From Dialister pneumosintes (GTDB taxonomy: Bacteria; Bacillota; Negativicutes; Veillonellales; Dialisteraceae), in NCBI RefSeq assembly GCF_001717505.1, contig NZ_CP017037.1, positions 535,001-599,000 of the forward strand: a stretch of DNA of 64,000 nucleotides, written 5' to 3'. Under the pieces are notes generated by a model. The model saw nothing but the letters and a program-made list of their open reading frames with translations. It did no database searches and was not told the origin of the DNA. This document shows, in pieces, positions 5,385-19,717 of the stretch. How positions within the stretch are numbered: the first letter of the stretch is position 1; each line of letters opens with the position of its first letter. Position numbers and translations under genes: made by a program.

Positions 5385-5843
5385 TTATTTCTTACTTTCC
5401 ATCAACGTTTTTAATTCTGTCATAAAACTGCTAATATCCTTAAATTCTCGATAAACCGAAGCAAAACGAACATAGGCTACTTGATCTATTTTTTTTAATT
5501 CATCCATAACAAAATTCCCAATACTTTCAGTAGTTACTTCTTGACAAGGATCACTTCTAACATGATGTTCAATAGAGTTTACCATGCGTTCAATTTGTTC
5601 GGAACTGATATTTCGTTTTTCACAAGCCCTGACTATTCCGCTTCGCACTTTATTTCTATCAAACATTTCACGTGTACCATCTTTTTTCATAACACGAAGT
5701 ACACCTTGTTCTATGGTTTCATAAGTAGTAAAGCGTTTATCACAAGATAAACATTGTCTTCTTCGACGTATAGAAGCTCCATCATCCGTATCACGAGAAT
5801 CCGTTACTTTAGTATTTGGATTATCACAAAAAGGACATTTCAT
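5385..5843 (-). CDS. nrdR: Ribonucleotide reductase repressor NrdR
   Basis: A 152-aa zinc-ribbon and ATP-cone repressor of ribonucleotide reductase genes. Starting at the ATG at 5843 gives MKCPFC, the invariant NrdR N-terminus. The zinc ribbon has CxxC (CPFC) and CxxC (CLSC), with the basic stretch SIRRRRQC between. The ATP-cone domain begins at about residue 48 (VMKKDGTREMFDRNKV). No nrd gene or paired NrdR box was found in the window, so its targets lie elsewhere. It follows ftsZ across a terminator and heads the heptose gene series. Confidence 0.96.
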   Translation of the reverse strand: MKCPFCDNPNTKVTDSRDTDDGASIRRRRQCLSCDKRFTTYETIEQGVLRVMKKDGTREMFDRNKVRSGIVRACEKRNISSEQIERMVNSIEHHVRSDPCQEVTTESIGNFVMDELKKIDQVAYVRFASVYREFKDISSFMTELKTLMESKK

Positions 5844-5867
5844 ATATAATCTCCTATTAAACCAAAA

Positions 5868-5893
5868 GACCACACTGCAAATGCGGTGTGGCC
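5868..5893 (-). terminator. Terminator after ftsZ
   Basis: On the minus strand the inverted repeat CCACAC...GTGTGG is followed by TTTTGGTTT. It lies between the ftsZ stop and the nrdR start, ending the division cluster. The T tract is interrupted, so some read-through into nrdR is possible. Confidence 0.75.
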
Positions 5894-5906
5894 CTGATAA
5901 TCATTA

Positions 5907-6926
5907 TTATTTTTTCAGGAAATCTGGTACCGCTATAGTAGATGAACGAGCACCCCCACCAAAGGTAGTTGTTCCCATAGAAGATATTTTCTTACCATCA
6001 GCAAATCCTGTAGCAATAACAGTAATCTTAACGGTATCATCCATATCCGGATCAATAGCTGTTCCCCAAATAATATTTGCATCCGGATCAGCAGCTTCAG
6101 TAATAATTTGAGAAGCTTCATTAATTTCAAACAATCCCAAATCTTCATTACCGGTAATACTGATAATAATACCTTTAGCACCTTCAATACTACGTTCCAA
6201 TAATGGACTTGAAATAGCCTGTTTAGCAGCATCACTCGCACGACTTTCTCCAGAACCAATACCAATTCCCATAAGTGCTTCACCTTGATCGCTCATGATA
6301 GTTTTTACATCAGCAAAATCGAGATTAATTACTCCCGGAACAGTAATTAAGTCTGAAATCCCTTGAATCCCTTGACGAAGGACATCATCTGCCAATCTAA
6401 AAGCATCCTTTACAGATGTTTTTTTATCAATAATTCCTAATAACTTATCATTAGGAACTACTAATATAGCATCTACATTTTGCTTTAACTTTTCAATTCC
6501 AGAAAAAGCATTATTCATACGAATTTTACCTTCAATGGAAAATGGTTTAGTTACTACAGCTACGGTCAAAGCTCCTAATTCTTTAGCACATTGTGCTACA
6601 ACAGGTGCTGCACCAGTACCTGTACCGCCACCCATTCCGGCAGTTACAAATACCATATCTGCACCGGTCAGGGCTTTTATTATTTCATCACGAGATTCTT
6701 CTGCTGCATTTCCACCAACTTCGGGCTTAGCACCTGCACCTAATCCACGTGTAACTTTTTCTCCGATTTGAATTTTTACATCAGCATTGGATTTATCTAA
6801 AACTTGCAATTCTGTATTTACTGCAATAAATTCAACACCTTGTACTTTAGCGTCTATCATTCGATTAACAGCATTGTTTCCGCCACCACCAACGCCAATT
6901 ACTTTGATATTTGCTAAATCACTCAT
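5907..6926 (-). CDS. ftsZ: Cell division GTPase FtsZ, very short C-terminal linker
   Basis: Tubulin-like GTPase that forms the division ring. The N-terminal tail is almost absent. [11 protein letters not shown] starts at about residue 13, the tubulin signature GGGTGTG lies at about residues 104-110, and the T7 loop NLDFAD at about 204-209. At 339 aa the protein is short for the family: the folded core ends near residue 315 and the conserved C-terminal peptide IAVPDFLKK forms the last nine residues. The disordered linker is thus about 12-15 residues. AGGAGG stands before the start. Upstream is ftsQ after a 131-bp gap with no ftsA. Downstream are a terminator and nrdR. Confidence 0.98.
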
Positions 6927-7057
6927 TTTTATCCTCCTTCGATGCTTCTTGGTTACATAAATTACTTTTATGAGAATATATTCATACTATTTTCATTTAT
7001 TTTACAATATTTTAAACAAATTATCTATAGGTATATACTATCCTACCCAAAAGATAT

Positions 7058-7936
7058 TTACTTTTTAAGTTTTATAAAGGGAGATGTCAAATTTACTTCT
7101 ATATATTCAACAGATAATCCTCTTGCCATAATATCTCCAACCATATTTTCTGCCATAACAGCTTGCTTATCAATATGTTCCCCGGAACCTAAATGCACTG
7201 CAATACCATCTCTGGTATAGGCAATAATATTATTTGGTTGTCCTATATTTACCTCAGAAAATTGTTTAAATCCATCTTGACTAAGAGAACTGATAAATTG
7301 AAGTGCTTTATTAATAGACTCTTCTTGTACTATATCTTCTAATAAAAGATTTCCCAATTTCTTTCCCGTAATAATAGGAAGATCTAATCCACTAATCGAA
7401 GTTTGTGTATCCATTACTCTTCCATTTTTATCAAGAACAGCATATACGTAATCTCCTTGTACAATAGCATAAGGAGTCCTATCATGAACAATAACATCTA
7501 TATAAAAAGGAAAGGATCTTTTTATATCTATTGAAGAAACTCTAATATCATGTAATAGTCGCTGTTTTACATTTGAAATATTAATTTGTAATACATTAAC
7601 GGGATGTTTAATCTTACCTTCAAAAATAATATCACTTCTAGTTACTACAGCGCTTCCGGTAACACGAATATCTCCAAAAGGGAGTGGTAAAAAAAGAAAA
7701 CTCAACAAAATTATAAAAAAGACAGCACATCCCATCATAAATCTTGTTTTCCATTTCTTTTTAATTCGTATTTTTCTTCTTTTCTTTTTAATATTTTTGT
7801 TTGACAGTTCTAAAGGTAATTCAGTTGAATCATTATTTACATTTGAGATAAAATTTGTTTCTTTATGATTTTCTTGTCTATCCAATCCTTTATGAATCGT
7901 ACGTTGAAAATCATCAAAACTTTTAAATTTACCCAT
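7058..7936 (-). CDS. ftsQ: Division protein FtsQ/DivIB
   Basis: A 292-aa bitopic division protein of the divisome QLB complex. The N-terminal cytoplasmic region (~70 residues) is very basic toward its end (KKKRRKIRIKKKWK). One membrane segment follows (about residues 67-86), then a POTRA domain opening with FGDIRVTGSAVVTRSDI and a beta domain. It follows ddl by 12 bp. The gap of 131 bp to ftsZ is the largest in this part of the cluster and holds no gene, so ftsZ may have its own promoter there, but I could not assign one confidently. Confidence 0.93.
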   Translation of the reverse strand: MGKFKSFDDFQRTIHKGLDRQENHKETNFISNVNNDSTELPLELSNKNIKKKRRKIRIKKKWKTRFMMGCAVFFIILLSFLFLPLPFGDIRVTGSAVVTRSDIIFEGKIKHPVNVLQINISNVKQRLLHDIRVSSIDIKRSFPFYIDVIVHDRTPYAIVQGDYVYAVLDKNGRVMDTQTSISGLDLPIITGKKLGNLLLEDIVQEESINKALQFISSLSQDGFKQFSEVNIGQPNNIIAYTRDGIAVHLGSGEHIDKQAVMAENMVGDIMARGLSVEYIEVNLTSPFIKLKK

Positions 7937-7948
7937 TAGAAATAACCC

Positions 7949-8887
7949 TTATACCTTTCTTATAGTAGCTCCAAGAAGAATTTTTTCACATAATTGAGGA
8001 AAATCTATACCTAATACAGCTGCAGATTTAGGTACTAAGCTAGTAGATGTCATTCCTGGAATAGAATTTGCTTCTAACATATAGGGGGTTCCATCTGCCG
8101 ATGTACGTATATCAAAACGAACTACTCCACTACATTCTGCAGCTTTATACCCCTTTACAGCCATTTCTTCCATTTCTTTAGCTAAAGTATCACTAATAGG
8201 TGCAGGAACTAAATATTCAGTAGCTCCTTTTGTATATTTAGAGTGAAAATCATAAGTTCCGGAATAAGGGCAAATTTTAATAATGGGAAAAGCTTTCCCA
8301 TTAAAAACAGGAATAGTAAATTCATCCCCATCTAAATAAGCTTCTGCAAGTAGTCGTTTTTCTACAGCAAACGCTCGCTCTAAAGCCGGAATAAGCTCTT
8401 CGTTAGTATGAACAATTTCTATTCCGATAGTAGAACCTTCACAAGCCGGTTTCAATACTACAGGAAACTTATTAAAATAAGAATTAATGGAGCTGGCTAC
8501 ATTTTCAATTCCATCAGAAAAATATACAGGAAGAGAATTTGCCATACGTATACCAGCTTGTTTGAATAAACGACTTGAAAAAATTTTATCCATAGTAATG
8601 GCACTGGAAGAAACACCGGAGCCTGTATAGGGAATCCCTTCCAGCTCTAAAACACTTTGAATGGTTCCATCTTCCCCATATTTTCCGTGTAAAGCGATAA
8701 AAACCACTTCTACATTATTCTCTTTAAGTTGGCTTATAACATTACGTGGATTATATTCAATAGCTATTGCATGATATCCTAAACCATTTAAAGCTTCAGT
8801 AATTGCTGTACCTGTAGCTCGAGATATGGCAGCTTCACCAGAAACTCCACCCATTAATACTCCCACGACATTATTTTTAGTTATCAT
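7949..8887 (-). CDS. ddl: D-alanine--D-alanine ligase
   Basis: ATP-grasp ligase making D-Ala-D-Ala for peptidoglycan precursors in the cytosol. The start at 8887 (MITKNNVVGVLMGG) has AAGGA at proper spacing inside the end of murC; a start 18 bp further upstream is less likely. Visible motifs are GGVSGEAAIS near the N-terminus, ALHGKYGEDGTIQ, the ATP-grasp lysines in FPVVLKPACEGSTIG, and the Mg-binding C-terminal EANSIPGMTSTSLVP. Length is about 312 aa, normal for Ddl. It overlaps murC by 11 bp and stands where many Firmicutes have murB. Confidence 0.96.
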   Translation of the reverse strand: MITKNNVVGVLMGGVSGEAAISRATGTAITEALNGLGYHAIAIEYNPRNVISQLKENNVEVVFIALHGKYGEDGTIQSVLELEGIPYTGSGVSSSAITMDKIFSSRLFKQAGIRMANSLPVYFSDGIENVASSINSYFNKFPVVLKPACEGSTIGIEIVHTNEELIPALERAFAVEKRLLAEAYLDGDEFTIPVFNGKAFPIIKICPYSGTYDFHSKYTKGATEYLVPAPISDTLAKEMEEMAVKGYKAAECSGVVRFDIRTSADGTPYMLEANSIPGMTSTSLVPKSAAVLGIDFPQLCEKILLGATIRKV

Positions 8888-10277
8888 TATATATTCCTTC
8901 TTCATCTAATAATTGAGCTAATTTTTGTCCTACCGTATAAATATTCCCGGCCCCCATAGTAATTATCATATCACCCGGCCTTGCTATATGATATAAACTT
9001 TCAACCAAATTTTCTAAAGTACAAACATAATGTACCTCTTTTGATAAATTGTTTTTTTGTACTAATAGAGGAATTAATTTCCCATCTACTCCGGATAATG
9101 GCTTTTCACTTGCAGCATAAATATCCGTAAAATAAAGAATATCCGCCATATCAAACGCAACTGCAAATTCATCACATAAAAGTTTAGTCCGAGAATAACG
9201 ATGTGGTTGAAATGCACAAATAACTCTATATCCACTAATTTCTTTTGCTGCTTTTAATGTAGCTTCTATCTCTGTGGGATGGTGTGCATAATCATCTACA
9301 ATCCAAATTCCATGATGAAATGCTTTAGTCTCAAACCGACGATGCACCCCACAAAATAAAGAAAGAGCTTCTTGAATAGATTCAAAAGATATTCCACAAT
9401 AAAGTGCAGTAACTATAGCAGCTAATGCATTAAGAACATTATGCTCTCCAGGTAAGTGTAATTGTATCGTACCCAAAATATGTCCTTTATGTAAAACATC
9501 AAACAATAAAAGATTTTTCTCGTATCTCTTATTAACAGCTTGATAATCTGCCTCTATATTAAATCCATAGGTAATAACTTTCTTTTTTACTTGAGATAAA
9601 ATACTACGTATACCTGCATTATCAATACAAACAACTGCTACGCCATTTTCATCTGAAATACGTTCAATAAATTCTATAAATGCTTTTTTTATATTTTCAA
9701 AAGTTCCATAATAATCTAAATGGTCATCTTCAATATTTGTAATTATAGACAGAAATGGTGAAAATTTAAGAAAAGTTCCATCACTTTCATCGGCCTCTGC
9801 AATAACGTATTCTCCTTTACCATAGCAAGAGTTTCCTTTTAAATAATCAGTAGCTCCTCCTAAAACAATAGTTGGATCTACATTTGCATACTTAAATATT
9901 TGTCCCACCATAGCAGAGGTTGTTGATTTTCCGTGAGCACCGGCAACAGCAATTCCTTTCCCCCACATAAACATAGCTGCTAATACATCTGATCGATGAA
10001 ATATAGGAATATTTCGATTTTTTGCTTCTTGCAATTCAGGATTCTCTGGTGAAATCGCTGAAGAAATAACAACAACATCTGCATTCTCTATATTTTCTGC
10101 TTTATGCCCTAGATAAATAGTAGCTCCTTGTTCTCTAAATTTATGTAAAATAGTAGAATCTACTACATCTGAACCGGAAACATTTACTCCCATATGAATC
10201 AAAATATTGGCTAAGGCACGCATGCCCATACCACCTATTCCTATAAAATGAAACTTTTGATATGTATCTAAATGCAT
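8877..10277 (-). CDS. murC: UDP-N-acetylmuramate--L-alanine ligase
   Basis: Mur ligase that adds L-Ala to UDP-MurNAc, the first peptide step of peptidoglycan synthesis. The N-terminal Rossmann motif FIGIGGMGM (residues ~11-19) is typical of MurC. The ATP loop is AGAHGKSTT (~112-120), followed by EADESDG and the C-terminal DDYAHHPTEI. Length 466 aa fits the family. It lies 8 bp downstream of murG and overlaps ddl. AGGAG stands ahead of the ATG. Confidence 0.98.
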   Translation of the reverse strand: MHLDTYQKFHFIGIGGMGMRALANILIHMGVNVSGSDVVDSTILHKFREQGATIYLGHKAENIENADVVVISSAISPENPELQEAKNRNIPIFHRSDVLAAMFMWGKGIAVAGAHGKSTTSAMVGQIFKYANVDPTIVLGGATDYLKGNSCYGKGEYVIAEADESDGTFLKFSPFLSIITNIEDDHLDYYGTFENIKKAFIEFIERISDENGVAVVCIDNAGIRSILSQVKKKVITYGFNIEADYQAVNKRYEKNLLLFDVLHKGHILGTIQLHLPGEHNVLNALAAIVTALYCGISFESIQEALSLFCGVHRRFETKAFHHGIWIVDDYAHHPTEIEATLKAAKEISGYRVICAFQPHRYSRTKLLCDEFAVAFDMADILYFTDIYAASEKPLSGVDGKLIPLLVQKNNLSKEVHYVCTLENLVESLYHIARPGDMIITMGAGNIYTVGQKLAQLLDEEGIYNDN

Positions 10278-10285
10278 AAAACAGT

Positions 10286-11407
10286 TTATCTCCTTTTTTC
10301 ATCGGCCATTTTTAGTGCCATGCTTGCAATATGGGCACCTGCATCTACCATTTTTAATTTATTTGCAGAATCAGACATACGTTTTCTTTTCCCCATATCA
10401 TTATAAAGTTCTTCAATATTGGAAATTAAAGACTCTGCTGTTAATTCTTTATCCAAAACCATCGTTGCTGCACCTGCATCAACAAAAACTTGTGCATTAA
10501 ATGTTTGATGATCTTCTGCTGCATAAGGGTATGGTATTAAGATCGCCGGTAAATTTTTAGCTGCTATTTCAGCAAGTCCAATAGCACCTGCACGATAAAT
10601 AATAACATCAGCAGCTGCTATTGCAGTTGGCATATCCTGTTGATAGTCTACAATTTGTGAGTTATTAATCTCTTTTTTATCAGGCATATTTTTTTGTAAT
10701 GTATCTTGTACATAGGTAAATTCTTTCGTACCGGTTATATGATAAATATAAATATCTGTTTTATTTGCAAAATATTTATGAACTCCTATCATAGCTTTAT
10801 TAATATTATGTGCGCCTCTACTTCCTCCGGCTACTAATATCATAAAAAAATTTTCCGGTATTCCAAGCTTTATTCTTGCTTCTTTTTTACTAATTTTTAT
10901 AATATCACTACGAATAGGGTTCCCTGTATATACACATTTATTCTTTATAGGAAAGTAGTTTTGTGCTTCCTTATATCCCAATGCTATTCTGTCAACAAAA
11001 TAACTAAGAATCTTGTTAGTGAATCCGGGAATTACATTTTGTTCCTGGATAATAGTAGGAATATGAGCTAAAGCCGCCATTAGTAAAATGGGACCGCAAA
11101 CATAACCACCGGTACCAATAACCACATCCGGTTTAAAATTTTTTAAAATAGTTCTTGCTTTCCAAAGACTACCAAATGTTTTAAATAAAATCGAAATATT
11201 TTGAAAAGTAAATTTTCGTTTCAGTCCGGACATAGGCATAGAAACAAACGAATATCCTTCTCGAGGAATAATCATTGATTCCATCCCATTAGGTGTTCCT
11301 ACAAATAATATTTCTACAGGTTCTTTTTCCTGTAATGCTTTTGCAATAGTAACAGCAGGATAAATATGCCCCCCTGTTCCACCGCCTGATAAAATAATTT
11401 TTTTCAT
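10286..11407 (-). CDS. murG: UDP-GlcNAc--lipid I GlcNAc transferase MurG
   Basis: Membrane-associated GT28 glycosyltransferase converting lipid I to lipid II on the inner face of the membrane. Key motifs are SGGGTGGHIYPA near the N-terminus (residues ~7-18), VIGTGGYVCGP, and the C-terminal donor site RAGAIGLAEIAAKNLPAILIPYP. Its length of 373 aa is usual. It sits directly between murD and murC; the SEDS gene ftsW/spoVE that often stands between murD and murG in Firmicutes is absent. Confidence 0.97.
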   Translation of the reverse strand: MKKIILSGGGTGGHIYPAVTIAKALQEKEPVEILFVGTPNGMESMIIPREGYSFVSMPMSGLKRKFTFQNISILFKTFGSLWKARTILKNFKPDVVIGTGGYVCGPILLMAALAHIPTIIQEQNVIPGFTNKILSYFVDRIALGYKEAQNYFPIKNKCVYTGNPIRSDIIKISKKEARIKLGIPENFFMILVAGGSRGAHNINKAMIGVHKYFANKTDIYIYHITGTKEFTYVQDTLQKNMPDKKEINNSQIVDYQQDMPTAIAAADVIIYRAGAIGLAEIAAKNLPAILIPYPYAAEDHQTFNAQVFVDAGAATMVLDKELTAESLISNIEELYNDMGKRKRMSDSANKLKMVDAGAHIASMALKMADEKRR

Positions 11408-11422
11408 AGCCAGTTATCCATA

Positions 11423-12766
11423 TTAATTTAAATGATTAACGATATCTTTAAAAATATCTCCTCGCTCTTCGTAACAAGAATACATATCAAAGCTTGAACA
11501 AGCAGGAGAAAGCATTACCACATCACCGATAGTTGCTATGTTCTGTGCTTTTTTTATTGCTTCTTCCATATTAACTGCTTTCTCAATAGTATGAATTCCA
11601 GCACGCTTAGCTTCTTCATAAAAACGTTCTGAAGATTCTCCAATTAATATTATATACTTTGCATGTATTTTTACATATTCCATAAAATCATGTAAAGGAG
11701 TTCCTTTATCATGCCCACCAACAATCAATATAAGTGGTTTATTAAAAGAACTCATTCCTTTTAACGCAGCATCTACATTCGTTGCTTTTGAATCATTAAA
11801 ATAACTCACTCCATGTAAAGTTCTTACGAATTCGACTCGATGTGCCAATCCTTTAAACGAGAGTAGTACTTTACGAATGGATTCTATAGAAACACCTCCA
11901 ATATACGCAAGAAAAGCAGCTGCTAAACAATCCTCATGATTTTGTGCTCCTTTAATTTGCAATTCCGAAATATCACAAATTATTATTTGTTGTTTATTAA
12001 CTTTTAGAACCAATTTATTATTAACAATGCAAGCTCCTCTGTCTACCTCTGTAGAAACATTTAACAAATATACTGAAGTATGCTTTTCAGCTTCTTCCAA
12101 CAATTTAGGGGTATATGGATCTTGCTCATTTAAAAGTAAATAACTTTCTTTATCCATGTTTTCAAAAATTCTAGATTTAGCAGCAACATATGCATCCATT
12201 GTATGATGCCTTTCCATATGATCAGGAGTAATGTTTAAAATCACAGCAGCTTTAGGTTTAAAAGTATCAATAAATTCAAGTTGGAAACTGGATAACTCAG
12301 CAGCAATCAAGCCTGTTTGTGGTACATTTTCAACTTCTACACTTAAAGAAACACCTATATTACCTGCTACTGCACAAGGAATAGACTCTTCCTTAATCAT
12401 TTTTCCTAACAATGTAGTAGTTGTTGTTTTTCCATTGGTACCCGTAATGCCTAATATAGGTGCTTTAGTTATTAAATACCCTAACTCCACTTCGCTGATT
12501 ACAGAAATTCCCCGTTTAATTGCTCCTCTAACAATAGGATTTTCTGAAGGCACAGCAGGAGAAAGTACTACTGTATCCATACCTTCTAATAACAAATCAC
12601 TTTGTGGCCCAAAACAAAAGATAACTCCGGCTTCAATGAGTTTCTTTTTTTTATCGCCAATACGATCTGCTAAATCAGAAAGAACTACATTAAATCCTCT
12701 TTTTGCTAAAACTTGTGCTGCACCAAGTCCACTTATACCTGCACCTAAAACTAAAACATTTTTCAT
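11423..12766 (-). CDS. murD: UDP-MurNAc-L-alanine--D-glutamate ligase
   Basis: Mur ligase adding D-Glu to UDP-MurNAc-L-Ala. The N-terminal domain opens with VLVLGAGISGLGAA. The ATP loop GITGTNGKTTTTTL is near residue 110. HRVE and FNDSKATNVDAALKG mark the central and C-terminal domains. Length 447 aa is standard. It follows mraY by about 56 bp and precedes murG by 15 bp in the cluster. Confidence 0.97.
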   Translation of the reverse strand: MKNVLVLGAGISGLGAAQVLAKRGFNVVLSDLADRIGDKKKKLIEAGVIFCFGPQSDLLLEGMDTVVLSPAVPSENPIVRGAIKRGISVISEVELGYLITKAPILGITGTNGKTTTTTLLGKMIKEESIPCAVAGNIGVSLSVEVENVPQTGLIAAELSSFQLEFIDTFKPKAAVILNITPDHMERHHTMDAYVAAKSRIFENMDKESYLLLNEQDPYTPKLLEEAEKHTSVYLLNVSTEVDRGACIVNNKLVLKVNKQQIIICDISELQIKGAQNHEDCLAAAFLAYIGGVSIESIRKVLLSFKGLAHRVEFVRTLHGVSYFNDSKATNVDAALKGMSSFNKPLILIVGGHDKGTPLHDFMEYVKIHAKYIILIGESSERFYEEAKRAGIHTIEKAVNMEEAIKKAQNIATIGDVVMLSPACSSFDMYSCYEERGDIFKDIVNHLN

Positions 12767-12822
12767 TTATAAGGCTCCTAATTTCAGAAAATACCTACAT
12801 TTCTTTTAAACTATATTTTCTT

Positions 12823-13797
12823 TTATATCATCTCACATATAGAAACTAATAATAAAACTCCTGCTGCTGCCAACATTTCAGTAAACCAAAAAAACCATAC
12901 TACTTGTGTTTCACTCCACCCGGACAACTCAAAATGATGATGAAGCGGACTCATTTTAAAGATTCTTTTTCCCCATAATTGAAAAGATGCTACTTGTAAA
13001 ATAACAGATAATGCTTCTGCTACAAAAATTACTCCTAAAAAGACTAAAAGTAATTCCGAATGTGTTACCACAGAAATACCTGCTATAGCGCCTCCTAAAG
13101 CAAGCGAACCTGTATCTCCCATAAAAATTTTAGCAGGATGATAATTATAAAACAAAAAGCCTGCACAACATCCTGCCATAATACAAGAAAATGCTGCTAC
13201 ATCAGTTAATCCTACCCATAAGCTATATAGAGCATATGCCATAAAAGTTATAAAACAACATCCTGCAGCTAATCCGTCTAATCCATCAGTTAGATTAACA
13301 GCATTAGATGCTCCCACTATAACTATCACAACAAAAGGATAATATAAATATCCAATAGACAATTCCCAAGAAGTAAACGGAACAAGAATTGCATGTGAAA
13401 GATTTAATGCGGTAGAAGTTCCATAACAAAATATAACTGCTAATATAATTTGCCCCATTAATTTCTGTTTAGCAGTTAATCCCAAATTTCTTTTCTTTTC
13501 CGCCTTAATAAAATCATCAAGAAATCCAAGAATGCAATATCCTACAGTAAGAACTAACAAACAAATGACTGCCCAAGAATGTGCTTGACTAAATACAGTA
13601 ACAATTACTGCAGCTAATACCATAAACAAACCACCCATTGTCGGTGTCCCTGATTTACAACGGTGAGATTTAGGTCCTTCTTCGCGAATAGATTGATGAG
13701 CTTTATATTTTTTTGCCATTGGAATTCCAACAGCTCCTAAAATAATCGTTGTAATAACAGCTATTATTATATATAAGAGGTATGGCATAAAAATCAT
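12823..13797 (-). CDS. mraY: Phospho-MurNAc-pentapeptide transferase MraY
   Basis: Integral membrane enzyme that moves phospho-MurNAc-pentapeptide onto undecaprenyl phosphate to form lipid I. The 324-aa chain shows about ten hydrophobic segments. The active-site signatures are EGPKSHRCKSGTPTMGG near the N-terminus, FLDDFIK with the catalytic Asp pair, NLTDGLDGLA, GDTGSLALGG, and the C-terminal MSPLHHHFEL. The start codon overlaps the murF stop by 4 bp. Confidence 0.97.
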   Translation of the reverse strand: MIFMPYLLYIIIAVITTIILGAVGIPMAKKYKAHQSIREEGPKSHRCKSGTPTMGGLFMVLAAVIVTVFSQAHSWAVICLLVLTVGYCILGFLDDFIKAEKKRNLGLTAKQKLMGQIILAVIFCYGTSTALNLSHAILVPFTSWELSIGYLYYPFVVIVIVGASNAVNLTDGLDGLAAGCCFITFMAYALYSLWVGLTDVAAFSCIMAGCCAGFLFYNYHPAKIFMGDTGSLALGGAIAGISVVTHSELLLVFLGVIFVAEALSVILQVASFQLWGKRIFKMSPLHHHFELSGWSETQVVWFFWFTEMLAAAGVLLLVSICEMI

Positions 13798-15170
13798 TTA
13801 CCGTCTCCCCCTAATAGTTGTAATATTTTTTCCATATGCATAGAATGTGATGCTTTTAATAATACGGTGTCTCCTTTTTTCATAATAGATTCGAGTACTT
13901 GAGCTGCTTCTTCCAAAGTGTTACAAGAAATTACTTGTTTGCATCCATGCTCTTTAGCTCCTAAGGCAATAAATTTACCTAATTCCCCTACAGTTATAAC
14001 TGTATCAACTCCTATTTCAGCAGCTCTTTTACCAGTTTCATAATGATATGTTTTCTCCTTTTCTCCAAGTTCAAGCATATCACCTAAAACAAGAATTTGA
14101 TGCACTCCATTGAGTTGTTTTAATGCCTGAAAAGCCATTTCCATAGATAACGGATTAGCATTATAAGAGTCATCCATTATTTGTACTCCATACATATTTA
14201 CAATATGCTGCCTTTGCTCTGCCGGTTTATACTGTTGAAATGCCCTTTGGATATATGAAGTTTCCACACCCATTAGATACCCTACAGCTATGGATGCTAG
14301 TGCATTATAGACATTGTGTACCCCTAACACAGGCAATTCAATCGAAAATACATGTTCTTTAATATGACAATCAAAACTGGTACTTGTTATACCGTAAGAA
14401 ATATTTTCCGCATGAACATCGCCTTTTTTAATTCCATAAGTAAGTACTTTTCCTCTAAAGTTTTCTTGCATACCTATAACTAAAGGATCATCTTGGTTAA
14501 GAACTGCAATCCCTGTTTCTCCTAACGACTCTATTAATTCACTTTTAGCTTTAGCTATGTTTCTCTTACTTCCTAAAATACCTATATGCGATGTCCCTAC
14601 ATTCGTAACAACACCTATAGTCGGTTTAGTAAATGTGCATAATTCTTTTATTTGCCCGATTCCACGCATTCCCATTTCCACAATACATACATTATCGCTC
14701 TTCTTTAAAGAGAGTAAAGTCTGGCACATTCCGATTTCATTATTATTATTTTTAACAGTACTACAAACAGAAAAAACTTGATTAAGTATCGTGAAAATCA
14801 TATCTTTGGTTGTTGTTTTTCCATTAGAACCTGTAACTCCAATAACAGGAATTAAAAAACGGTTTCTATGAAAATAGGCACAATTTTCTAATGCAACTTT
14901 AGTATCGTTTACATAAAATATAGATATTTGTTTCGGTACTTTATGTAAACAATTTTTATTGCTAATAATAATACCCGCTGCGCCTTTATTAATAGCATTA
15001 TCGATAAACTCATGTCCATCAAAATTTTCTCCGAGCAAAGCAATAAATACATCACCCTTCTTAATGGTTCGTGTATCGGTACTAATCCCACTAAATAAAG
15101 AAGTTACACCTTTCTGTATTAAAGCACCATTTAATGCTTTATTTAATTCTTCAATCGTAAATGTTGCCAT
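13794..15170 (-). CDS. murF: UDP-MurNAc-tripeptide--D-Ala-D-Ala ligase
   Basis: Mur ligase that adds D-Ala-D-Ala to the UDP-MurNAc-tripeptide. It has STDTRTIKKGDVFIAL in the N-terminal domain, the ATP loop VTGSNGKTTTKDM near residue 112, NNNNEIGM (the MurF-type stretch after the P-loop), and DDSYNANPLSM in the C-terminal domain. The 458-aa length is normal. It overlaps murE by one base (TAATG) and mraY by four, indicating translational coupling. Confidence 0.97.
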   Translation of the reverse strand: MATFTIEELNKALNGALIQKGVTSLFSGISTDTRTIKKGDVFIALLGENFDGHEFIDNAINKGAAGIIISNKNCLHKVPKQISIFYVNDTKVALENCAYFHRNRFLIPVIGVTGSNGKTTTKDMIFTILNQVFSVCSTVKNNNNEIGMCQTLLSLKKSDNVCIVEMGMRGIGQIKELCTFTKPTIGVVTNVGTSHIGILGSKRNIAKAKSELIESLGETGIAVLNQDDPLVIGMQENFRGKVLTYGIKKGDVHAENISYGITSTSFDCHIKEHVFSIELPVLGVHNVYNALASIAVGYLMGVETSYIQRAFQQYKPAEQRQHIVNMYGVQIMDDSYNANPLSMEMAFQALKQLNGVHQILVLGDMLELGEKEKTYHYETGKRAAEIGVDTVITVGELGKFIALGAKEHGCKQVISCNTLEEAAQVLESIMKKGDTVLLKASHSMHMEKILQLLGGDGK

Positions 15171-16675
15171 TATCTACACTTCCTAATTATATTCCGAGCT
15201 TCTTCTCTATCATCAAAATGAATAATTTTATCTTTAATAATTTGATAAGTTTCATGCCCTTTACCCGCAATAAGAATCGTATCCCCTGATTTCCCTATTT
15301 GAATAGCATGACTAATAGCATCTCTTCTATCAATTAGCACTTCATAACTGAAAACATATCCATTATTAATAGCTTTACGTACCCCGTCTTCTATTTCACT
15401 AATAATAAAGGCAGGCTCTTCTGAACGAGGATTATCACTCGTAATAATTATAATATCACTATATAATGCTGCTATTTCTCCCATAATCGGACGTTTTTTT
15501 CTATCTCGATCTCCACCACACCCAAATACAGTAATTATGCGTCCTTTTGTAAATTCTCTTGTTGTTTTTAAAATATTTTCAAGTCCATCGGGTGTATGTG
15601 CATAATCAACTATAACAGTAAATGGTTGTCCTTCATCTACAATTTCAAATCGTCCCGGGACAGTAGTAAAGGTCGATAACGCTGAAATAATTTGATCAAT
15701 ACGTATGCCTTCCGAAAGTGCAGCACCAATCGCAGCCAGTGTATTATATACATTAAAACGTCCTACTAACTTTGTATGTACAGAGTAAGTAATATCATCC
15801 ATCTTTAAATCAAATGATAAAGCCTGTCTAGAAAATTTAATATTTATAGCTTGTAAATCCGCCTCATTTTCAATCCCATAAGTAAATACCGGACAAAAAG
15901 TTTTCTTATTTACAAAACTTTTCATAATAGTTGCATAAGAATCATCTATATTAATAATTCCGGATTTTAATGGTTTGCTATGTTTATCGGCAGAAACCAA
16001 AGAAAATAATCTCGCTTTAGTTTCTGCATAACTTTCCATAGTTTTATGGTAATCAAGATGATCTTGTGTAAGATTAGTAAATATAGCCGTATCAAATTCA
16101 CAACCTGCTATACGGTTTAAAGATAATGCATGCGAAGATACTTCCATAGATACATGTGTAACCCCTGCTTTTTCCATCCTATAAAGAATCTTCTGCAAAG
16201 TAATAACATCAGGTGTTGTATTTCTTATCGGATATGCTTCTTCATTAATAAGCCAATGAAGAGTTCCTATAACACCCACTTTATATCCCTGTTGTCTTAA
16301 AATATGTGCAATGATATGTGTAGTTGTCGTTTTTCCATTTGTTCCTGTTACAGCTATCATCCTCATTTTTTTTGAAGGATAATCAAAAAAATAAGGAGTT
16401 ATATCTTCCATAGCTTTTCTGGTATCTTCTACATAAACAACAGTTATTAAATCGGATACATTTATTTCTTTAGAAGCAATAATAACTGAAGCACCTCTAT
16501 CTGCTGCTACAGTAGCATAATCATGTCCATCCACATGAACCCCTTCAAGACAAATAAAAAGGCTTCCTTTTTTTACTTCGCGTGAATCTGCTGTAATGTC
16601 AGAAACTTCACTGTTAACATTTCCAATTATAGATTTTACTTCTGTGCAAGCAATTAATCTTTCCAGAGTTTTCAC
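15170..16675 (-). CDS. murE: UDP-MurNAc-tripeptide synthetase, meso-DAP type
   Basis: Mur ligase adding the third amino acid. The motif SDNPRSEEP near residue 408 is the DNPR form that marks meso-diaminopimelate-adding MurE rather than the L-lysine type. This agrees with dapL in the window. The ATP loop is VTGTNGKTTTTHI (~110-122). Length 501 aa. The start is GTG at 16675 with GAGGTGA upstream. It is separated from ftsL by a strong terminator, so the murE-to-ftsZ block should be transcribed from its own promoter in the ~60-bp leader, which I could not pin down. Confidence 0.97.
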   Translation of the reverse strand: MKTLERLIACTEVKSIIGNVNSEVSDITADSREVKKGSLFICLEGVHVDGHDYATVAADRGASVIIASKEINVSDLITVVYVEDTRKAMEDITPYFFDYPSKKMRMIAVTGTNGKTTTTHIIAHILRQQGYKVGVIGTLHWLINEEAYPIRNTTPDVITLQKILYRMEKAGVTHVSMEVSSHALSLNRIAGCEFDTAIFTNLTQDHLDYHKTMESYAETKARLFSLVSADKHSKPLKSGIINIDDSYATIMKSFVNKKTFCPVFTYGIENEADLQAINIKFSRQALSFDLKMDDITYSVHTKLVGRFNVYNTLAAIGAALSEGIRIDQIISALSTFTTVPGRFEIVDEGQPFTVIVDYAHTPDGLENILKTTREFTKGRIITVFGCGGDRDRKKRPIMGEIAALYSDIIIITSDNPRSEEPAFIISEIEDGVRKAINNGYVFSYEVLIDRRDAISHAIQIGKSGDTILIAGKGHETYQIIKDKIIHFDDREEARNIIRKCR

Positions 16676-16744
16676 TTTCTCACCTCAATTTTATTGCGTA
16701 TCTTCAAAAAGCATTACTATTTATCATATATTAAATATATAATG

Positions 16745-16782
16745 AATACAATAGCGACTCCTTCCGGAGTCGCTATTGTATT
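16745..16782 (-). terminator. Strong terminator between ftsL and murE
   Basis: A 17-bp near-perfect stem (AATAGCGACTCC pairing with GGAGTCGCTATT and flanking A/T pairs) with a 4-nt TTCC/GGAA loop. T-rich sequence follows on the minus strand. It would end the mraZ-rsmH-ftsL transcript at the place where ftsI usually follows ftsL. Confidence 0.85.
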
Positions 16783-16821
16783 TCCCTTATTCCTACCCGG
16801 ATAAGCGATCTTTCTTATTAA

Positions 16822-17208
16822 TTAATCTCTTACTATACCGGTATGTGCCAAATTATCGCTACTTCCATATACAGCACTTTCCGGAACTACCATCCCTAAA
16901 GTAGTTTCTGCAATATTTTCTATACGAGAAGGTGATTCCAATCTAGCCACTTCCATACGCCTACTCTCATTTTCACGCTCAAGAGTCATTACTTCCGCTC
17001 TGATACTGGACATTTGATATTCCTTTTGAATAATTGCGCCATTGAAAAAGTAAATAGTACCGACAATACTTGCAGCAAACATAATAATTTCCAATACTTT
17101 TTTAAAGCTTTTAGCATATACACCGGTTTTTACTTGAACTTGTTTTCTAGCAGAAGTAGTAGTAACTATTGATTGATACGATTCCACCAAATACTCTTGA
17201 GATGACAT
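16822..17208 (-). CDS. ftsL: FtsL-like division protein
   Basis: A small bitopic protein with the FtsL/DivIC plan. About 35 cytoplasmic residues are followed by one membrane segment (about VLEIIMFAASIVGTIYFF). A leucine-zipper-like coiled coil follows (MSSIRAEVMTLERENESRR), and then the short ESPSRIENIAETTLGMV segment typical of FtsL. The start at 17208 (MSSQEY) has GGAGGAAG upstream; the longer frame overlaps rsmH without a site. Sequence similarity in FtsL is low by nature, so the call rests on topology and on position directly after rsmH. Confidence 0.85.
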   Translation of the reverse strand: MSSQEYLVESYQSIVTTTSARKQVQVKTGVYAKSFKKVLEIIMFAASIVGTIYFFNGAIIQKEYQMSSIRAEVMTLERENESRRMEVARLESPSRIENIAETTLGMVVPESAVYGSSDNLAHTGIVRD

Positions 17209-17239
17209 AGACTTCCTCCAATTTACACCCAACATACAG

Positions 17240-18172
17240 TTATATTTTTTCAACCACACGCAAGATAGCACTTCTTGCTCTAGGATTTTCTTTTATTTCT
17301 ATTTCTGTCGGTCTTTGTGCTTTTACAATCTGTTTCACTTCTTTTGTATGATGACACATACAAACAGGAAACTCAGGTGGACACACACACGCAGTTTCCA
17401 TCAATTTAAATACATTTTTTATAATCCTATCTTCTAAAGATTGAAAAGTAATAACACCTAATCTTCCACCCGGCTTTAATCTTCTTACACAATCCTTCAT
17501 AGTTTGTTCTAATATTTTTAATTCATTATTAACTTCAATCCTTATAGCTTGAAAAGTACGTTTTGCCGGATGTGAGCCTTCTCTTCTAACGGCTTGTGGA
17601 ATAGCCGCTTTTATGATATGTACCAATTCATTAGTTGTTTTAATCGGATTTTCTTTTCTAGCTTTTAAAATAAACTGAACAATTCTTTTCCCCCAACGTT
17701 CTTCTCCATACTCAAAAAGAATTTTTTCTAACATTTCCGAGGAATAAGTATTAACTACTTCATAAGCAGTTAAAGTATTTCTTTGATCCATTCTCATGTC
17801 CAGATCACCATTATTCATATAAGAGAATCCTCTATTTCCATCATCAAGTTGTGGTGAAGATACTCCCAAATCAAAGATAAATCCATCCACCTTATCAATA
17901 TGTACGCTATCTAAATTCTCATCTACAAATGAAAAATTATTTCGTATAGTTAAATAATTACATTTAATAGACTTTAATCGTTCTCTTGCAGCTTTAATTG
18001 CCTGCTCATCTTGATCGATTCCAATAAGCAAAGCAGTATCAGCTAACCTTTGTGCCAAAGCACAAGAATGTCCTCCACCACCAAGAGTACAGTCAACATA
18101 TATACCTTCCGGATTAGTTAGTATATTATTTATCATTTCATCAAGTAGTACTGTTTTATGTTTAAAGGCCAC
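17240..18172 (-). CDS. rsmH: 16S rRNA (cytosine-1402-N4)-methyltransferase
   Basis: SAM-dependent methyltransferase for C1402 of 16S rRNA (MraW). Starting at the GTG at 18172 gives MAFKHKTVLLDEMI. SAM motif VDCTLGGGGHS lies at residues ~24-34, followed by DGFIFDLGVSSPQLD and the C-terminal FQSLEDRIIK and NPRARSAILRVVE. Length 310 aa. The ribosome-binding site GAGGT overlaps the mraZ stop codon, so translation is coupled to mraZ. Confidence 0.97.
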   Translation of the reverse strand: MAFKHKTVLLDEMINNILTNPEGIYVDCTLGGGGHSCALAQRLADTALLIGIDQDEQAIKAARERLKSIKCNYLTIRNNFSFVDENLDSVHIDKVDGFIFDLGVSSPQLDDGNRGFSYMNNGDLDMRMDQRNTLTAYEVVNTYSSEMLEKILFEYGEERWGKRIVQFILKARKENPIKTTNELVHIIKAAIPQAVRREGSHPAKRTFQAIRIEVNNELKILEQTMKDCVRRLKPGGRLGVITFQSLEDRIIKNVFKLMETACVCPPEFPVCMCHHTKEVKQIVKAQRPTEIEIKENPRARSAILRVVEKI

Positions 18173-18180
18173 AATTTACC

Positions 18181-18618
18181 TCATATTTCAAAATCCATAG
18201 GTACATCTAAAGATTCCGCCAATTCCCCAATAGACTCTTCTTTGCTATTAGTTAGTTGTAAAATTTCTGGACTCCAAATTTCAATAGTCGCACCGGTTCC
18301 AATTACCAATGCTTCTTTTTTTATTCCTGCATATTCACGAAGATGTGAGGGAATAAGTACTCTCCCTTGTTTATCACATTCAACTTCTGTACTACTTCCA
18401 ATAAGAAAGCGCCTCAATGTACGTACACTACTTTTTGTGAAAGAGAGTTTTTGAAGACTACTTGCCAATTTTTCCCAATTTTCTAAAGGATATATAGTTA
18501 AACATTGATCAATTCCCCGAGAAAGAACAAATCGGTTACCTAAACCTTCTCTAAACTTAGCAGGAAGAATCATACGACCTTTAGCATCAATCGTATGGTT
18601 ATATTCATTCATAAACAT
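18181..18618 (-). CDS. mraZ: Transcriptional regulator MraZ
   Basis: A 145-aa AbrB-like DNA-binding protein with two MraZ domains that regulates the cell wall and division cluster. The start at 18618 (MFMNEYNHTIDAKGR) matches the family N-terminus. The ATG further upstream at 18639 lies inside the operator and is not needed. The two DAKGR/DKQGR-type repeats (KGRMILPAKFREGL and QGRVLIPSHLREYA) are clear. GGAGGGAGGG is the ribosome-binding site. It sits first in the cluster behind its own promoter and operator. Confidence 0.96.
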   Translation of the reverse strand: MFMNEYNHTIDAKGRMILPAKFREGLGNRFVLSRGIDQCLTIYPLENWEKLASSLQKLSFTKSSVRTLRRFLIGSSTEVECDKQGRVLIPSHLREYAGIKKEALVIGTGATIEIWSPEILQLTNSKEESIGELAESLDVPMDFEI

Positions 18619-18633
18619 AATTCTTCCCTCCCT

Positions 18634-18677
18634 CCACATTTACCCACATTCTACCATAATTCACCACCTTTTGTCAC
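18634..18677 (-). promoter_or_regulatory. mraZ promoter with four-repeat MraZ operator
   Basis: On the minus strand the upstream region has four copies of (G/A)TGG spaced exactly 10 bp apart (18664-18667, 18654-18657, 18644-18647, 18634-18637), three being GTGG. The -10 box TAGAAT (18648-18653) lies between repeats. A GTGACA -35 box (18672-18677) stands 18 bp away. MraZ is known to bind short TGG-type direct repeats at 10-bp spacing ahead of its own gene, so this is a self-regulated promoter. Confidence 0.85.
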
Positions 18678-18739: not shown

Positions 18740-18780
18740 AAAAAAGAAGGATATCGTTTCATACGATATCCTTCTTTTTT
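18740..18780 (-). terminator. Terminator after gluQ
   Basis: A perfect 17-bp stem (GAAGGATATCG arm plus A/T pairs, 7-nt loop) followed by T residues on the minus strand. It overlaps the last bases of gluQ and insulates the mraZ promoter. The A and T tracts on both sides would let it work in either direction. Confidence 0.9.
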
Positions 18781-19717
18781 AAATACTTATGGTTTTCTTT
18801 GTAAGATTATGACATTCATTAAAAGAAATATTATTTTTTGCATAACGTAGTGAAATTTTTTCCGGTTTAGAAATAGCTCCTGCCCAAAACAATAATTTTC
18901 CAATAATATCGTTTACAGTTATCCCACTATTTCTAAGTGAACGAATAGTAATTCCTTTTTGCCGTTTAGATAATCGAATCCCTTCTTTATCTACTAACAA
19001 TGGAAGATGTCCATAAACAGGAAGTTGATATCCTAATTCTTTTAATAACTTTATCTGATAAAAAGTTGAGGATAATAAATCTTCTCCTCTAAATACATGA
19101 GTAATATCCATAGCACCATCATCATAAGATACAGCTAATTGATAAGCAACCATTCCATCTGTCCTCATAATAACAAAATCATCACGATTTGGCATAAGAT
19201 TGTAATATTGTTTTTTATGGAATATATCCGAAAAAGAAACGGTTTCTTTTTCTTTTATTTTAAAGCGCCATGATGGTTTAATTTTATGTTTTTCATCTAT
19301 AGTTGTTAAGGTATTACGACAATATCCATCATAAATAGGTAATTGCTCCCCACGATGTGGTGCTGATGCAATTTTATGGATGCGTGCACGCGTACAATAA
19401 CACGGATACGCATCCCCATTATTCCCCCATTTATGTATAAGAGATTTATAAAGTCCTAAACGTTCAGATTGAATAGTGCTTCCATATGAATAAGTAAAAC
19501 CGGGGCCTTCATCCCAATCAAGACCTAACCATTCTAAATCTTCTTTTAATGCTTTTATATATTCTAATTTAGAACGCTCTCCATCTATATCTTCAATCCT
19601 CAATATTATAGAGCCTCTATTTTGCCGAGTAAATAACCAATTAAGAAAGGCTACCCATATATTCCCTATATGCAAATATCCGGTAGGACTTGGGGCAAAT
19701 CTTGTACGTATTTTCAT
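18779..19717 (-). CDS. gluQ: Glutamyl-Q tRNA(Asp) synthetase
   Basis: A 312-aa paralogue of glutamyl-tRNA synthetase lacking the anticodon-binding domain. It attaches Glu to queuosine in tRNA-Asp. It has the Rossmann motif FAPSPTGYLHIGN (HIGH = HIGN) and the zinc site CYC...YDGYC. KMSKS is replaced by the degenerate LSKRQKG expected for this class. The full GltX is encoded separately at 47779-49230. The start overlaps the stop of the M16 peptidase gene by one base (TAATG). Confidence 0.92.
   Translation of the reverse strand: MKIRTRFAPSPTGYLHIGNIWVAFLNWLFTRQNRGSIILRIEDIDGERSKLEYIKALKEDLEWLGLDWDEGPGFTYSYGSTIQSERLGLYKSLIHKWGNNGDAYPCYCTRARIHKIASAPHRGEQLPIYDGYCRNTLTTIDEKHKIKPSWRFKIKEKETVSFSDIFHKKQYYNLMPNRDDFVIMRTDGMVAYQLAVSYDDGAMDITHVFRGEDLLSSTFYQIKLLKELGYQLPVYGHLPLLVDKEGIRLSKRQKGITIRSLRNSGITVNDIIGKLLFWAGAISKPEKISLRYAKNNISFNECHNLTKKTISI

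Follow-up and report, generated by a model that had tools for sequence, protein, structure and literature searches.

A conserved four-box array at 10-bp spacing over the predicted mraZ promoter of Dialister pneumosintes, a very probable MraZ operator

At the start site of the Burkholderia dcw cluster, four 7-nt repeats separated by 3-nt spacers have been described, and a fragment holding these repeats was used in a gel shift (PMC7761207). Both the Burkholderia boxes and those of E. coli are said to sit downstream of the -10 element (PMC7761207). E. coli MraZ is reported to act by repression and to have a wide effect on gene expression, and the mycoplasma MraZ is described as an activator, both as told in PMC7761207, so that the sign of the MraZ effect is not universal. 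The Mollicutes repeat is given as (AAAGTGKN3)3 (PMC5282649), and in M. genitalium the deletion of mraZ raises the expression of the dcw genes and the MraZ regulon consists of one operon (PMC8475190). These papers are cited throughout from excerpts. In the open-licence literature we found neither a paper describing a MraZ-DNA structure nor one dealing with the mraZ promoter of Veillonella; some of the listings were partial, and such work may be in print elsewhere.

We analysed a window of 64,000 nucleotides of the D. pneumosintes genome, meaning the whole stretch of DNA presented above, in which four RTGG cores follow one another in 10-bp steps on the minus strand (18634..18667), 5' of mraZ (ATG at 18618). 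The cores, numbered here as boxes 1 to 4, are GTGG (18667-18664), ATGG (18657-18654), GTGG (18647-18644) and GTGG (18637-18634). The original prediction had placed repeats at 18634, 18644, 18654 and 18664 with exact 10-bp spacing, and reading of the minus strand bears these coordinates out. It had also claimed that the repeats interlock with the -10 hexamer TAGAAT, which indeed sits between cores 2 and 3 (18653-18648). Read from 18677 to 18610 on the minus strand, the region contains in order GTGACA, GTGG, ATGG, TAGAAT, GTGG, GTGG, GGAGGGAGG and the ATG of mraZ. At least three direct repeats with a GTG core and 10-bp spacing, as expected for a MraZ operator, are thus found 5' of mraZ, since three of the four RTGG cores are GTGG.

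The array lies far above chance. Within the 130 bp 5' of mraZ all four RTGG cores fall at a period of 10 (4/4), and none of 2000 dinucleotide shuffles matched this. The other periods gave only one core (6-9 and 11-14) or two cores (15) in the same 130 bp, and when both strands of the whole window were scanned at periods 6 to 15, the mraZ array was the sole run that reached three RTGG. When one mismatch was allowed, a three-box search of the window returned three matches, all belonging to the array and one of them in an additional register, against a chance expectation of 1.07. A search of the complete genome, a single contig of 1,274,073 bases, for three boxes without mismatch gave the mraZ array alone, in two overlapping registers, and the reversed control gave no match. 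A four-box scan of the genome with up to two mismatches returned seven matches versus six for the reversed control, three of the seven being registers of the mraZ array and four lying at two mismatches, and we claim no further MraZ targets. A megablast search of the mraZ operator region against plasmids gave no match.

B-DNA has a helical repeat of about 10.5 bp. The spacing of 10.0 bp is slightly shorter, so the four boxes would lag by about 1.5 bp from the first to the last unless the DNA is deformed. To call the repeats exactly in phase with the DNA helix, as the original prediction did, is therefore an approximation.

The gene downstream of the array encodes a member of the MraZ family. 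The mraZ product has 145 aa (18181..18618, minus strand), and its start was placed by the family N-terminus and the Shine-Dalgarno sequence, the mechanical open reading frame starting at 18639. The protein scores 140.8 bits against TIGR00242 (cut-off 98.35) and matches PF02381 twice above the cut-off. Its AlphaFold model (six sequences; pLDDT 85.5) superposes over 136 aligned residues on the MraZ of M. pneumoniae (1n0e; Z 21.6, rmsd 1.6) and, over the same number of residues, on two M. genitalium MraZ entries, 9r4j, whose title names a complex with its promoter (Z 20.4, rmsd 1.9), and 9sz7, a cryo-EM entry with '4 box promoter' in its title (Z 20.2, rmsd 1.5). Judging by these titles, the protein that binds a four-box promoter there is a MraZ with the same fold, although the sequence identity between the 9sz7 protein and the MraZ studied here is 31%. 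The nearest named relative that we found is Allisonella histaminiformans, with a MraZ that is 79% identical.

The chromosomal context is that of a dcw cluster, with mraZ in first place followed by rsmH (mraW; 17240..18172, minus strand; TIGR00006). Profile matches on the same strand (5385..17271) identified an ftsL-like gene, which scores below the curated cut-offs, then murE, murF, mraY, murD, murG, murC, ddl, ftsQ and ftsZ, followed by nrdR. Dcw clusters have a usual gene order in which ftsI and ftsA have their own places. The gap between the ftsL-like gene and murE is only 146 bp and that between ftsQ and ftsZ only 131 bp, indicating that neither ftsI nor ftsA is at its usual place. On the other side of the mraZ promoter lies a glutamyl-tRNA synthetase-like gene (18779-19717; 312 aa) that scores just below the cut-offs of the GluQRS and GltX models. 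A terminator-like hairpin with a T run may separate this gene from the mraZ promoter (18740..18780, minus strand); it was noticed by reading the sequence and is absent from the output of the hairpin scan, whose loop and stem limits may miss such a hairpin.

Comparison with the described systems reveals both likenesses and differences. The dcw promoter of Burkholderia cenocepacia shares with this locus four repeats of 10-bp period that overlap the start site, here a predicted one, 5' of mraZ; the repeats are placed there downstream of the -10 element (PMC7761207), whereas boxes 1 and 2 lie upstream here, with the -10 hexamer between boxes 2 and 3. E. coli K-12, used as a yardstick, also carries GTGG repeats in exact 10-bp steps immediately 5' of mraZ, but has three RTGG cores with GGGG at the fourth position, compared with four cores here. 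The repeat of the Mollicutes is given as AAAGTGK (PMC5282649, PMC8475190) and not RTGG. E. coli MraZ is described as affecting many genes (PMC7761207), whereas the D. pneumosintes genome contains a single array, which suggests, as far as sequence scans can indicate, that MraZ controls one operon only, as it does in M. genitalium.

The promoter scan predicts a promoter that overlaps the array, with the -10 hexamer TAGAAT (18648..18653, minus strand) in a conserved register and a -35-like hexamer GTGACA (18672..18677, minus strand) separated from it by an 18-nt spacer that contains core 1. This promoter scores 10/12 and has a TG before the second hexamer; over the window as a whole, the scan was no richer than shuffles (15 versus 14.9). 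The array overlaps promoter and start site as placed by this predicted promoter only. Among 58 aligned regions of the order, the 18-nt spacer gave the best mean match to TTGACA (3.17/6, compared with 1.09-2.40 at spacers of 14-17 and 19-21), and 24 of the 58 match at two bases or fewer, so the -35 element is not uniform in the order. A Shine-Dalgarno-like sequence, GGAGGGAGG (18627..18635, minus strand), probably serves mraZ and overlaps the end of core 4. Core 4 also forms an ATG (18637-18639) in frame with mraZ, seven codons upstream of its start and about 2 nt past the predicted start site. A near-leaderless start at this codon is conceivable; only two of the family's 11 regions retain the ATG, with GTG in one more, and the codon is thus probably unused.

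To place the locus among its relatives, we searched 60 genomes of one order, including the genome of the window, found mraZ in 59 and read all 59 upstream regions. A search of the class found mraZ in 87 further genomes, from which the best 29 of the 87 loci were taken, resulting in 88 regions (59 + 29). Four further loci (L032-L035) and E. coli (L103) were kept outside this count, and two loci were dropped, one for a wrong start (L036) and one for lack of a start (L037). Three or more RTGG in exact 10-bp steps occur in 69 of the 88 regions, of which 84 are distinct over 70 nt; related genomes are counted as independent. In 100 shuffled sets the mean was 0.11 and the maximum 2, and periods of 6-9 and 11-15 over the same regions gave 0 or 1. 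The family of the window has all four RTGG in 11 of 11 regions, and conservation in the alignment is higher in the boxes than at most spacer positions. Conservation in relatives had been proposed as a check on the original prediction, with its absence counting against it, and these data come out in favour.

The 19 regions that lack three RTGG at 10 bp belong to four families: 15 to f3, one to f2, two to f14 and one to f26. The f3 regions concerned (15 of 17) have only two RTGG, with boxes 1 and 4 reading GTGT and GTGA, and four GTG cores remain. The other exceptions amount to one of four regions in f2, two of four in f14 and one of four in f26, the last without an array. Beyond the class, the named bins L033 and L034 carry three and four boxes, respectively. 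L032 is identical to L023 over the last 75 nt before mraZ. In L035, a Bacteroidetes bin, GTGG, GTGT, TTCC and GTGG stand at 10-bp steps in the interval from 41 to 1 bp before mraZ, and we read this sequence as a degenerate array with its third place changed.

The G-rich character of the repeats raises the question of whether a G-quadruplex, and not MraZ binding, is what matters here, hindering transcription or translation of mraZ and leaving the boxes a secondary role. Such a structure has been described downstream of the S. aureus mraZ promoter, with motifs said to be conserved at mraZ in other bacteria (PMC11796246, cited from an excerpt), and the window does contain a two-tetrad motif, GGGTAAATGTGGAGGGAGGG. 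The coding strand of the 88 upstream regions, the window included, has four runs of three G in no case, and the two-G motif is present in 22 of the 88 (again including the window), while the 10-bp array is kept in 69. Moreover, the T of RTGG, which is useless to a quadruplex, occurs in boxes 1 and 2 of 59/59 regions of the order, in an alignment whose anchor fixed the GG of box 2 and not its T. With four G runs lacking and conservation tracking RTGG at 10 bp, we rejected the G-quadruplex as the main explanation and regard it as extremely unlikely.

The position of the boxes relative to the promoter is fixed within the order. A -10-like hexamer follows box 2 immediately, at an offset of +14 from box 1, in 58 of 58 scored arrays (of 59 regions) under a loose definition (at least 4/6, with A2 and T6); the next commonest offsets were +26 (29) and +21 (27). 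A stricter word, RTGG followed directly by TANN[AC]T, is present in 59/59 regions of the order. As box 2 adjoins the -10 hexamer, its TGG doubles as the TGn of an extended -10, which would give MraZ and sigma the same bases to read. This coincidence, together with the overlap of box 4 with the Shine-Dalgarno sequence, could also mean that the repeats have no operator function and merely reflect the presence of an extended -10 element and of a ribosome-binding site rich in G. Neither element needs a GTGG in the 35/10 spacer or in the initially transcribed region, where boxes 1 and 3 are found. In addition, the exact 10-bp spacing extends to the class beyond the order; of 26 arrays there, only two, both from family f14, have a -10-like hexamer adjoining a box, which in them is box 3. 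The chance that the repeats are such a byproduct appears very small. According to the predicted -10 hexamers, the array seems to be placed differently relative to the promoter across lineages, by whole boxes in f14.

A distinct variant was found in family f4, which has three RTGG in 27 of 27 regions. Box 3 is replaced in all 27 (including L005, L007, L010, L057 and L071) by TTTACC, and box 2 and this sequence together make up a palindrome that spans the -10 and the start region. The palindrome reads TGGTARAATTTACCA in 26 regions and has one base changed in L003, and TTTACCATA was found in none of the 67 other regions read. Six genomes were scanned for the palindrome with up to one mismatch: it occurs only at mraZ in five f4 genomes and is lacking in the genome of the window. 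At two mismatches, 20 matches were left beyond the mraZ sites and three mirror-image matches, versus 16 for the reversed control. It is possible, if somewhat short of probable, that in the order one MraZ box is itself the extended -10, with sigma and MraZ competing directly for the identical TGG, and that the inverted third box of f4 points to an oligomer reading DNA in either orientation or to a second regulator that moved in.

We consider the array to be a MraZ operator, with a probability of roughly 94%: MraZ would bind the boxes as an oligomer, exclude RNA polymerase and lower transcription of the mraZ operon. The original prediction had seen in the repeats the known MraZ binding pattern, and this agrees with the identity of the mraZ product, with boxes whose sequence and spacing correspond to those of E. 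coli and Burkholderia, with the overlap of the promoter and with the conservation in relatives. MraZ, the product of the first gene, would occupy the four RTGG boxes with successive subunits on successive boxes, on roughly one face of the DNA. Box 1 would fill the 35/10 spacer, box 2 would coincide with the extended -10, box 3 would lie on the likely start region and box 4 would reach the edge of the ribosome-binding site. With all these elements covered by the boxes, the promoter would be open to either MraZ or RNA polymerase but not to both, and at box 2 the competition between MraZ and sigma would be for the same TGG bases.

Reasoning from the systems of E. coli, Burkholderia and M. genitalium, we infer that MraZ very probably acts as the repressor of the cell-division and cell-wall operon to which its gene belongs, the extent of this operon and its start site being those predicted here. 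The opposite sign, with MraZ as an activator bound upstream of and over the promoter, would agree with the role described for the mycoplasma protein (as told in PMC7761207) and with the position of box 1 upstream of the -10; we consider it very unlikely, since the -10 and the likely start site are both buried under the array and repression has been reported in E. coli and M. genitalium (PMC7761207, PMC8475190).

As a MraZ operator, the array is of an already known kind and the regulation is otherwise well known, so that its presence at this locus causes little surprise. The comparison confirms that the 10-bp array of MraZ boxes is strongly conserved at the dcw promoters of the class, and the natural variants, with box 2 fused to the extended -10 or box 3 inverted, could be used to test how the MraZ oligomer reads DNA.
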